Shown here: positions 31,414 through 47,407 of the stretch, piece by piece
Numbering within the stretch: position 1 is the stretch's first letter
How the letters are laid out: each line of letters opens with the position of its first letter
DNA from: Eubacteriaceae bacterium CHKCI004
GTDB taxonomy: Bacteria > Bacillota > Clostridia > Lachnospirales > Lachnospiraceae
DNA length: 64,000 nucleotides
Direction of reading: 5' to 3'
Assembly (NCBI GenBank): GCA_900016875.1
Contig: FCNR01000017.1
Location: 62,001 to 126,000 of the forward strand
Program-made: the position numbers and the translations under genes
The notes under the pieces: generated by a model
Database searches by the model: none
Seen by the model: only the letters and a program-made list of their open reading frames with translations
What the model was told of the DNA's origin: nothing

Positions 31414-31442
31414 TTTACAAAAAGAAACATTCTTGATATAAT
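31414..31442 (+). promoter_or_regulatory. Strong predicted promoter of murA-metK
   Basis: TTTACA at 31414-31419, a 17-bp spacer, and a perfect TATAAT at 31437-31442. Transcription would begin near 31449, leaving a leader of about 238 nt before murA. Confidence 0.75.
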
Positions 31443-31448
31443 GAGTTA

Positions 31449-31641
31449 TTGATTGTATCTGTATTCGTACAGAGATCAGGATAAAGCAGCGCTTTATTAT
31501 TCTGAGGAGAGCCGAAGGATATGACCACGGTCTCAGAGACCGTATGACGAGTTTTGAATTGATGGATTGACTGCATAGTTTGGGCAGATTGTCATATCCG
31601 GAGTGCAGCAGAGCAGTGCCGGTTTACCCGGCGTTTTTTGA
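31449..31641 (+). ncRNA. Structured 5' leader RNA of murA, possible riboregulator
   Basis: Helices that can be read directly: hairpin TCTGTA-TTCG-TACAGA (31458-31473); TCAG/CTGA enclosing ATAAAGC-AGC-GCTTTAT (31476-31505); a 9-bp long-range helix GGATATGAC (31517-31525) with GTCATATCC (31591-31599) enclosing ACGGTCT-CAG-AGACCGT (31527-31543) and a short CTGC/GCAG arm (31571-31587); then a terminator hairpin (31618-31639). The layout of aptamer-like junction followed by terminator resembles a riboswitch. By eye it lacks the cores of SAM-I, T-box, glycine and ydaO RNAs. The downstream genes are murA and metK. Confidence 0.55.
31618..31639 (+). terminator. Terminator or attenuator in the murA leader
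   Basis: GCCGG-TTTAC-CCGGC followed by GTTTTTT, 48 bp before the murA start and downstream of the promoter, so it can only act on the leader transcript. This position suggests regulated read-through. Confidence 0.7.
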
Positions 31642-31686
31642 GTTTGATAATTAGTTTTGGTTTGATATAGATATAGAGGTGCAAGA

Positions 31687-33000
31687 ATGGAACAGTATAT
31701 TATTAAGGGTGGTACTCCGTTAGTTGGTGAAGTGGTGATCGGAGGTGCCAAGAACGCAGCACTGGGAATTTTGGCGGCAGCCATCATGACAGACGGGCAG
31801 TGTCTCATCGACAATATGCCGAATGTCAGGGATACGAATGTTCTGCTTCAGGCCATGGAGCAGATCGGGGCCACAGTGGTCCGCAAAGGTGACAATGAAG
31901 TTTTGATCAGCGGTAAATATATCGATTCCAGCGGGGAACTGCTGGTGGATAATGAATATATAAGAAAGATTCGGGCGTCCTACTACTTAATAGGTGCCCT
32001 TCTGGGCAAGTATAAGAAGGCGAAGGTCGTTCTGCCGGGCGGATGTGAGATCGGAAGCCGGCCGATCGACCAGCATATTAAGGGATTCCGTGCGCTGGGC
32101 GCCGAGGTAAAGATTGAGCACGGCATCATTATGGTTGACGCGGAGGAGCTGCGGGGCAGCCACATCTATCTTGATGTGGTATCTGTCGGTGCGACCATCA
32201 ATATCATGATGGCGGCATCGCTGGCTCATGGCAACACCATCATTGAGAACGCGGCCAAGGAGCCGCATATTGTGGATGTTGCCAATTTCCTGAACAGCAT
32301 GGGCGCCAGCATCAAAGGTGCGGGAACCGATGTGATCCGTATCAAAGGTGTGGAGAAGTTCCACGATACGGAGTATTCGATCATCCCGGACCAGATTGAG
32401 GCGGGAACCTTTATGATGGCAGCAGCGGCGACAAGAGGAGACGTTCTTATCAAGAATGTCATTCCGAAACATCTGGAAGCGATTTCTGCCAAGCTCAGCG
32501 AGATCGGTGCAGAGGTGGAGGAATCTGATGACGCTGTGCGGGTTGTGGCAACCCGCAGGCTGAAACACACCCAGATCAAGACGCTGCCGTATCCGGGATT
32601 CCCGACAGATATGCAGCCGCAGATTGCGGTGACTCTGGGACTGTCCAAGGGAACCAGCATCATTACGGAAAGTATTTTTGAAAACCGGTTCCGCTACGTG
32701 GAGGAGATGCGCCGCATGGGCGCCAACATTAAAGTGGTTGACGGTAATACGGCTATTATTTCCGGTGTGGAGAAGTACACAGGAGCTACTGTGGAGACGC
32801 CGGACCTTCGTGCAGGAGCGGCTCTCGTGATTGCCGGACTGGCAGCAGAGGGATATACGACGGTGACGCAGATTGGCTATATCCAGAGAGGTTACGAACG
32901 CTTTGATGAGAAATTGCGCGCGCTCGGAGGCATGATTGAAAAAGTGGATTCCGAGAAGGACGCCAATAAGTTTATTTTTAAGACCGGAACGGTCAGCTAA
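31687..33000 (+). CDS. murA: UDP-N-acetylglucosamine 1-carboxyvinyltransferase
   Basis: Transfers enolpyruvate from PEP to UDP-GlcNAc, the first committed step of peptidoglycan synthesis and the target of fosfomycin. 437 residues in the inside-out alpha/beta barrel fold. Seen: GGAKNAALGILAAAIM at the N-terminus with the conserved Lys-Asn pair, the active-site loop GGCEIGSRPIDQHI in which the catalytic residue is Cys (fosfomycin-sensitive form), and FPTDMQPQ. The start follows AGAGGTG. metK follows 13 bp downstream. Its leader is discussed separately. Confidence 0.96.
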   Translation: MEQYIIKGGTPLVGEVVIGGAKNAALGILAAAIMTDGQCLIDNMPNVRDTNVLLQAMEQIGATVVRKGDNEVLISGKYIDSSGELLVDNEYIRKIRASYYLIGALLGKYKKAKVVLPGGCEIGSRPIDQHIKGFRALGAEVKIEHGIIMVDAEELRGSHIYLDVVSVGATINIMMAASLAHGNTIIENAAKEPHIVDVANFLNSMGASIKGAGTDVIRIKGVEKFHDTEYSIIPDQIEAGTFMMAAAATRGDVLIKNVIPKHLEAISAKLSEIGAEVEESDDAVRVVATRRLKHTQIKTLPYPGFPTDMQPQIAVTLGLSKGTSIITESIFENRFRYVEEMRRMGANIKVVDGNTAIISGVEKYTGATVETPDLRAGAALVIAGLAAEGYTTVTQIGYIQRGYERFDEKLRALGGMIEKVDSEKDANKFIFKTGTVS

Positions 33001-33013
33001 GGAGTGAAGGAAA

Positions 33014-34204
33014 ATGGAAAGAGTGTTGTTTACTTCTGAATCCGTGACAGAAGGACATCCGGATAAGATGTGCGACCAGGTTTCAGATGCGATTTTAGAT
33101 GCGTTGATGGAGAAAGACCCGATGAGCCGTGTGGCCTGTGAGACAGCTATGACGACAGGTCTGGTGCTTGTCATGGGAGAGGTGACCACCAATGCGTACG
33201 TGGACATTCAGAAGATTGTTCGTGATACGGTAAAAGAGATTGGATATACCAGAGGTAAATACGGTTTTGACGCAGATACCTGCGGCGTGATCGTTGCCCT
33301 TGATGAGCAGTCTCCGGATATTGCCATGGGCGTTGACAAAGCGCTGGAGGCGAAGGAGAATAAGATGTCCGATGAGGAGCTGGAAGCTATCGGAGCCGGC
33401 GACCAGGGTATGATGTTCGGTTACGCTACCAATGAGACAGAAGAATATATGCCTTACCCGATCGCTCTTGCCCATAAACTGGCGCTTCAGCTTACCAAGG
33501 TAAGAAAAGACGGTACTCTGCCGTATCTTCGTCCGGACGGTAAGACGCAGGTTACCGTTGAGTACGACGAGAATGGCAAGCCTGCCCGCCTGGACGCTGT
33601 GGTTCTTTCCACACAGCATGACCCGGATGTGACGCAGGAGCAGATTCATGAGGACATTAAGAAATATGTGTTCGACGCCATCATTCCGCAGGACATGGTG
33701 GACGAGGATACCAAATACTTCATTAATCCGACAGGACGTTTCGTTATCGGTGGACCGCACGGTGACAGCGGACTGACAGGACGTAAGATTATCGTAGATA
33801 CTTATGGCGGATACGCCCGTCACGGCGGCGGTGCTTTCTCCGGAAAGGACTGTACCAAGGTAGACCGTTCCGCGGCGTACGCGGCAAGATACGTGGCAAA
33901 GAACATCGTGGCAGCCGGTCTGGCTGACAAATGTGAGATTCAGTTATCTTACGCCATCGGCGTTGCTCAGCCGACGTCCATCATGGTAGATACCTTTGGA
34001 ACCGGAAAATTATCTGAGGAGAAACTGGTGGATATCATTCGCGAGCATTTTGATCTGCGTCCGGCAGGCATTATCAAGATGCTTGATCTTAGACGTCCGA
34101 TCTACAAACAGACAGCCGCTTACGGACATTTTGGACGTAATGATCTTGATCTTCCGTGGGAGAAGCTGGACAAGGTGGACATGCTGAAAGCATATCTGGC
34201 GTAA
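33014..34204 (+). CDS. metK: S-adenosylmethionine synthetase
   Basis: Makes S-adenosylmethionine from methionine and ATP. 396 residues, usual length. Seen: [20 protein letters not shown], the signature [12 protein letters not shown] and the P-loop-like [16 protein letters not shown]. The start follows AAGGAGTGAAGG. It shares a transcript with murA, which is an uncommon pairing; metK in Firmicutes is usually alone behind an S-box. A terminator stands 46 bp after the stop. Confidence 0.97.
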
Positions 34205-35244: not shown

Positions 35245-35310
35245 CATGGATGGTATTCGGAAGAAACCATACCGCGTGCAGCACGGATAAATATTGAGCT
35301 TATATCCATG
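35245..35310 (+). promoter_or_regulatory. Folded leader upstream of the pantothenate operon
   Basis: CATGGAT (35245-35251) can pair with ATCCATG (35304-35310). It encloses GGTAT (35252-35256) with ATACC (35269-35273) and the small stem CGTG-CAG-CACG. A bulged hairpin in front of pan genes recalls the described pan RNA motif, but I cannot confirm the match without a covariance model. Confidence 0.35.
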
Positions 35311-35355
35311 GGAATGAGACTCGGAGCGTCACTTTACGAAAGTAAGGTGATAAGA

Positions 35356-46780: not shown

Positions 46781-47218
46781 ATGACAGTAATAACCAAGAT
46801 TCTTTTAATGGCAGCATTAATTTTAAGTATTGTTCTTCCGTTTTGTTATTTTTATCTGGGAGAGAAATGTAAAAAACGTTATAAAAAGACACTGGGCGTC
46901 AACACCGTATTTTTCTTCGGCACATTGCTCGTTGCCATCGTGGTGATGTTCAGCGGTCAGAATGTGGAAGCAGCCGAGACAGCCGCGGCGTCGGCATCCG
47001 GCATCGCCACAGGACTTGGATATCTGGCGGCAGCCCTTGTAACCGGTCTGTCCTGTATCGGCGGCGGTATCGCCGTGGCCAGCGCGGCCAGCGCCGCACT
47101 GGGAGCGTTAAGTGAAGATTCCAGTATTCTTGGTAAGTCGCTGATCTTTGTAGGTCTGGCAGAGGGTGTCTGCCTGTATGGACTGATCATCTCCTTCATG
47201 ATTCTTGGAAACCTGTAA
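46781..47218 (+). CDS. V-type ATP synthase subunit K (membrane ring)
   Basis: 145 residues with four helices (about 5-25, 43-60, 76-105, 118-142). The ion-binding carboxylate is Glu128 in VGLAEGVCLYGLII. The second hairpin is a normal c-type pair (GLGYLAAALVTGLSCIGGGIAVASA in parts). The first hairpin lacks the Gly/Ala-rich packing pattern and reads more like a plain membrane hairpin with a charged loop (EKCKKRYKKT). Thus only one binding site per four helices. It starts 11 bp after subunit I. Whether it carries protons or sodium cannot be settled; I see no Gln partner in helix 3. Confidence 0.9.
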   Translation: MTVITKILLMAALILSIVLPFCYFYLGEKCKKRYKKTLGVNTVFFFGTLLVAIVVMFSGQNVEAAETAAASASGIATGLGYLAAALVTGLSCIGGGIAVASAASAALGALSEDSSILGKSLIFVGLAEGVCLYGLIISFMILGNL

Positions 47219-47223
47219 CACCA

Positions 47224-47278
47224 GGCTCCAGAAAGTCGGGCTTTCACGCTAGCGTGAAGAAGCATGGCTTTGGGAGCC
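47224..47278. repeat. Intergenic palindromic repeat, copy C, inside the V-ATPase operon
   Basis: The best-preserved copy: outer arms GGCTCCAGAAAG / CTTTGGGAGCC and inner arms GGGCTTTCACGC-TA-GCGTGAAGAAGC. It begins 6 bp after the subunit K stop. Related to 939-984 and 6726-6773. Confidence 0.7.
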
Positions 47279-47328
47279 GCCACCACATGAGCATGGAGCA
47301 CGATAGTGTGGGAATGCGAATGTGGGAA

Positions 47329-47360
47329 GGATTGCGGGAGCGCAGTGCGCGGAGCAATCC
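47329..47360. repeat. Second hairpin in the K-F gap
   Basis: GGATTGC / GCAATCC arms around an inner GCGC-AGT-GCGC. It lies 50 bp after copy C; flanking GTGGGAATGCGAA occurs twice (near 47318 and 47382). Together the two hairpins fill most of the 189-bp gap before subunit F. Confidence 0.6.
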
Positions 47361-47407
47361 GTGGTGTTACCGTATACAGGAGTGGGAATGCGAAGGAGGC
47401 GATATCC

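Follow-up and report, generated by a model that had tools for sequence, protein, structure and literature searches.

The murA-metK leader of Eubacteriaceae bacterium CHKCI004 contains a three-way-junction core that is conserved, is compatible with a common fold, and has a fixed location: in no genome searched was it found outside the leader of murA. The element is real and selectively kept, and it most likely has a cis-regulatory role. The leader element is probably a fast-evolving, clade-restricted, cis-acting structured RNA of the murA-metK mRNA. The DNA analyzed, hereafter the window, is a stretch of 64,000 nt (assembly GCA_900016875.1, contig FCNR01000017.1, positions 62,001–126,000 of the forward strand). 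A first-pass annotation had placed here a promoter, a leader of about 238 nt, a TTCG hairpin, an ATAAAGC hairpin, a 9-bp junction helix, a perfect 7-bp hairpin and a terminator-like hairpin, and all of these were found where it had put them. In window positions, the features are:

31414–31442, + strand: promoter, comprising TTTACA (31414–31419), a 17-nt spacer, TATAAT (31437–31442) and an extended TG; 11 of 12 consensus matches
31458–31473, + strand: 5′ hairpin TCTGTA-TTCG-TACAGA, from sequence and fold; by eye, a similar stem in G009 and G022 only
31480–31498, + strand: hairpin GATAAAGC-AGC-GCTTTATT, not conserved across the core clade
31499–31643, + strand: possible alternative helix P0 (31499–31514 with 31629–31643), which excludes the terminator; −56.2 versus −54.9 kcal/mol
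31516–31600, + strand: conserved three-way-junction core
31517–31525, + strand: 5′ strand of P1, GGATATGAC; P1 is paired in 53 of 54 hand-anchored cells
31527–31543, + strand: P2 hairpin ACGGTCT-CAG-AGACCGT, paired in 32 of 36 cells; invariant CGG/CCG base, variable upper stem and length
31544–31570, + strand: J2/3, GAYGAGTTTTRRWTTGA, a stretch conserved in the alignment, without a conserved helix
31571–31587, + strand: P3 hairpin CTGC/GCAG, paired in 24 of 24 cells and almost invariant
31591–31599, + strand: 3′ strand of P1, GTCATATCC, pairing with 31517–31525 (hand-anchored count)
31615–31639, + strand: terminator-like hairpin (31615–31635) with a following T-run; the other five core-bearing leaders gave no such site in the scan
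31642–31686, + strand: conserved pre-RBS stretch with TAGTTTTGGTTTGATATAGATATAGAGGTG; these last 45 nt are 63–89% identical in the core clade, a figure without shuffle control
31687–33000, + strand: murA (NCBIfam TIGR01072, 543.5 bits)
33014–34204, + strand: metK (NCBIfam TIGR01034, 612.4 bits)

The abstract of PMC12993851 places MurA at the first step of peptidoglycan synthesis and names it as the target of fosfomycin. MurA was found in 23 of the 24 genomes of the genus (E ≤ 1e-100). In the window, metK starts 13 nt behind murA; it lies directly behind murA at 21 of the 24 genus loci (L015–L038), and the remaining three (L029, L035, L036) end at contig ends there. Outside the genus, metK was located within 300 nt of murA in seven among the 80 loci listed, none of which is from the genus. 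The strict form of the promoter (TTTACA-17/18-TATAAT with TG) precedes murA at 22 of the 24 genus loci, with a spacer of 17 nt in 20 and of 18 nt in two, and is the most widely shared feature of the murA leader in the genus. The genus as a whole is thus characterized by a murA-metK run behind a single strong promoter, and one clade inside it by the structured core. The leader is presumably transcribed, with a start that would lie about 7 nt past 31442, judging from the promoter. A promoter-proximal stretch like TGTGTCGAAAAGTACATA, with changes, was seen by eye in the first 60 nt of nine core-less leaders (L019, L021, L022, L024, L025, L027, L028, L030, L032).

The core occurs upstream of murA in six distinct sequences: that of the window (identical in contig 288 of G014), and those of G009, G022, G008, G007 and contig 208 of G014. 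A covariance model of these six, used to score at most 150 first-look candidates per genome, identified seven loci at E ≤ 1e-15, all of them immediately ahead of murA, in six of the 24 genomes of the genus. Five further model matches, with E values of 0.39–0.77, were taken as noise. The core was single-copy and was not found elsewhere in the 24 genus genomes. Among 397 genomes drawn from the family, searched with the model under strict filters and with an exact pattern, only the window's own core was found; the draw included two genus genomes only and thus speaks about other genera. In a murA tree of 25 rows (22 from the genus and three from outside), the six core sequences formed one clade with a support of 89/91, below the program's mark of 95/80. 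The genome G014 (L014, L037) has two murA loci, one of them identical to the window over leader and MurA; with a contamination of 7%, it may be a mixed assembly.

Over the 79–88 nt of the core, the six sequences are 69–95% identical (49–51% when shuffled), and in all 15 pairs the identity exceeds that of fourfold-degenerate murA sites, which is 44–73%. Conservation of the helices in relatives had been set as a test in the first-pass annotation, and the core is indeed kept by selection across the six sequences. Purifying selection above the level of neutral sites, combined with a fixed place before one gene, qualifies the core as a putative structured cis-regulatory RNA. The length of the leader varies from 76 to 593 nt across 22 genus leaders. 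Elsewhere in the genus, the murA leaders lack the core, and two of them measure just 76 and 92 nt, so expression of murA does not generally depend on the core.

The predicted structure is one in which P1 closes a three-way junction with P2, P3 and the long conserved J2/3. Over the six sequences, 109 of the 114 hand-anchored cells of P1, P2 and P3 remain paired, one bulged base in G008 having been set aside in the P1 count. In the MAFFT alignment, 92.7% of the cells pair, compared with 22.9–50.0% after sliding by 1–3 columns. Changes on both sides of a pair were found in two pairs of P1 and two pairs of P2 (none in P3), but they did not reach significance with six related sequences. In the MAFFT alignment, the covariation score was reached by 46 of 500 shuffles and the paired share by 152 of 500. 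When the 3′ arms were permuted, the observed covariation values were equaled in 16% of the cases for P1, in 16–72% for P2, depending on the measure, and in 100% for P3. With six related sequences, the covariation is suggestive only.

That the element exceeds chance is shown mainly by its conservation. The core of the window, folded alone, is more stable than its shuffles (z −2.33; 0 of 200 as good). For the cores of the five other species, 19, 2, 40, 3 and 4 of 200 shuffles were as good, so two of the six cores (19 and 40 of 200) were not more stable than shuffles by a 5% criterion. In the full leader, P1 forms with a pair probability of 0.64–0.99 in five species; in G007, a competing helix displaces it and the probability is 0. 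The minimum-energy fold of the window's leader contains both 5′ hairpins, P1, P2 and P3, and the leader as a whole has a slight stability advantage over its shuffles (z −1.48, with 15 of 200 as stable). Within J2/3, the motif GAGTTTT is invariant in all six sequences. In the core alignment, which is the trimmed version, gaps are confined to upper P2 and the loop of P3, apart from a single one in J2/3.

In the part of the leader before the core, a clear excess of identity over shuffles was found in three of 15 pairs (those of the window, G009 and G022; 65–66% versus 48–52%), while the other 12 pairs were within 0.02. In the part after the core, which includes the last 45 nt, identity was 0 to 0.21 above shuffles. 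What is conserved is thus the promoter, the core and the pre-RBS stretch; neither the two 5′ hairpins nor the terminator belongs to these units. By eye, two hairpins resemble the one at 31480–31498: a terminator-like one in G001 and, in G009, an AU-rich one with T behind it. Positions 31550–31563 of J2/3 (AGTTTTGAATTGAT) and 31653–31666 of the pre-RBS stretch (AGTTTTGGTTTGAT) are alike, as judged by eye only.

The first-pass annotation had read the leader as riboswitch architecture. One part of this reading, the conserved junction, stood; the other, an aptamer and a terminator forming a conserved unit, did not, as the terminator is found in one of six core-bearing leaders and P0 is matched by about 15% of shuffles. 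Terminator-like sites numbered one in 1000 bases, against a shuffled mean of 0.6. Among the 22 leaders, five (G000, G001, G002, G004, G012) have such a site, at differing places. The scan requires three G-C pairs and misses AU-rich terminators; in G009, an AU-rich hairpin followed by TTTTT was seen by eye ahead of the core, outside the scan criteria. The energy gap between P0 and the terminator was matched in 15% of shuffled and 14% of random 5′ arms (300 trials each). Attenuation is possible in the window species, and it is not a conserved property of the element.

The first-pass annotation recognized no SAM-I, T-box, glycine or ydaO core in the leader, and the Rfam scan that it recommended gave no match at threshold there. 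At the gathering threshold, Rfam 15 yielded no family in the leader and only Clostridiales-1 and a pan motif elsewhere in the window. At E ≤ 10, the leader had eight matches, all below gathering, the best being a snoRNA with 18.4 bits versus 45; a sub-threshold Lysine match at the murA start had 13.8 versus 30 bits. No SAM family was among the eight, and the 4227 models scanned presumably included SAM-III and SAM-VI. Of the 25 murA loci, 20 were scanned with Rfam at gathering, and pan motifs were all that it gave in them. SAM-I (RF00162) was found neither in the window at gathering nor in G000 at E ≤ 0.001, and occurred in one of the 24 genus genomes (G003). The Clostridiales-1 RNA (RF01699) lies at 47216–47369 (+ strand, 118.6 bits) and the pan motif (RF01749) at 35247–35326 (+ strand, 44.1 bits). 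The reading frames after the latter are presumably pantothenate genes, and pan motifs are also present in L019, L022 and L027.

Coding readings of the core were also considered and set aside. Every plus-strand frame has a stop in five or six of the six sequences. A leader peptide starting at an ATG inside P1 is not supported: the frames are 8–12 codons long, unlike in sequence and, by eye, without a well-spaced SD. One minus-strand frame is open in five of the six cores; it is interrupted by a stop in G008, its residues in G007 are quite different, and it was ascribed to composition.

In two genomes without a core match in the murA leader, G002 and G010, the region between promoter and murA is occupied by a different block of 98 nt. 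The two blocks are 96% identical, while the fourfold murA sites agree at 96 of 195 (49%). Like P1, the block is flanked by GGATAT and ATATCC. A loosened GGATAT...ATATCC pattern was present in eight of the eight leaders with a core or block and in none of the 14 others, the pattern having been framed after the sequences were seen. The likeness of J2/3 to the leaders of G002 and G010 is weak: with a consensus query, 17 and 29 of 200 shuffles were as good, and with a six-stretch query, 59 and 28 of 500. No Rfam match to the block was found at E ≤ 5. The next matches to it in the genus are partial (G001, E 0.0016; G019, E 0.063), and three of 200 shuffles folded as well as the G010 block. Homology between block and core is taken as likely, on suggestive evidence. 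By eye, the block (L019, L021) contains the mini-frame ATG/GTG AGT GGT TTG AAT AGA TAG.

How might the element act? Most likely, the junction would be a putative binding site for a trans factor (a protein, an RNA or a small molecule), whose binding would stabilize P1. In the window species, the output could then be readthrough or termination at 31615–31639. The other five core-bearing leaders, which have no terminator by the scan, would have a different output (RNA stability or translation), or else the window terminator would be a local addition. The predicted regulatory effect could come about in two specific forms, both of which fall under the preferred reading of a cis-acting structured RNA, so that the confidence placed in them overlaps with that placed in it. 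One is a leader-binding protein or an antisense RNA, with the C-poor J2/3 (GAGUUUUGAAUUGAU) as its site; since J2/3 resembles the pre-RBS stretch (UAGUUUUGGUUUGAU), one factor would be able to touch both. Few parts of the leader are as well conserved as J2/3 and the last 45 nt, but their likeness sits in low-complexity sequence, and we regard this form as unlikely. The other, rather unlikely, is a metabolite riboswitch with transcription attenuation, the junction being the aptamer (for SAM, UDP-GlcNAc, PEP or similar) and the terminator the output. It would account for the junction with its long conserved J2/3 and for the mutual exclusion of terminator and P0 in the window; metK and murA are both plausible targets, and SAM-I was not found in 23 of the 24 genus genomes. 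Against it stand the single terminator-like site among six core-bearing leaders, the ease with which shuffles match the alternative helix, and the narrow distribution: the core was not found in the 396 other family genomes drawn (strict filters or exact pattern), whereas riboswitch aptamers are widely spread as a rule. As for the wall precursor or SAM-linked signal suggested in the first-pass annotation, nothing beyond gene position points to either.

Two further explanations would dispense with a regulatory junction. The variable leader length and the dispensability of the core outside one clade would fit a passive 5′ UTR structure with no role beyond shielding the message from decay or setting the distance between promoter and gene. 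This explanation is quite unlikely; in J2/3 the letters themselves are kept and not the stems alone (GAGTTTT in all six sequences), beyond the needs of a passive hairpin. A stand-alone small RNA gene that ends at the terminator, with murA reached via readthrough, is very improbable: promoter, compact fold and terminator-like site do form a unit of about 190 nt in the window, but the other five core-bearing leaders had no terminator, and the core is just before murA in all seven loci. The preferred reading of a clade-restricted structured RNA could also be extended to a narrowly distributed new riboswitch class that would govern wall synthesis, at its first committed step, together with SAM synthesis, in a genus that joined murA and metK and had SAM-I in one of 24 genomes; the G002/G010 block would be a diverged version of the same sensor. 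We consider this extension improbable.

Among the articles listed for murA, its leader, transcript, mRNA and operon, and riboswitches of Lachnospiraceae, none concerned a leader RNA, and a structured leader RNA that controls murA was not found there or by term in two papers on orphan riboswitch candidates. Should the element prove regulatory, the supply of wall material and of SAM would be coupled in one bacterial genus. The same place holds two different blocks, each very conserved internally, which makes the locus a compact test case for the turnover of cis-regulatory RNA between related species.

Several known systems invite comparison. SAM-responsive riboswitches (SAM-I, SMK/SAM-III and SAM-VI) are linked to metK, and SMK and SAM-VI are small junctions. 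The element described here shares with them a structured leader of a metK-holding operon; unlike them, it matches no SAM family at E ≤ 10, it has metK as the second gene, and it belongs to a genus with SAM-I in one of 24 genomes. BglG/LicT-type RAT antiterminators are another known leader-RNA system. By eye, GGATTGACTGCAT...GCAG of the window resembles one half of a RAT hairpin; however, the partner strand of the hairpin is missing here and the likeness is lost in G007, and this reading was set aside by eye. By term, PMC11109978 and PMC8632094 have no murA, metK, Lachnospiraceae or Blautia entry in the main text; the one occurrence of 'mura' in each belongs to muramidase or an author name. With the orphan riboswitch candidates of these two papers, the murA element has in common that a conserved structured element lies in a long leader, and it differs from them in its much narrower distribution.
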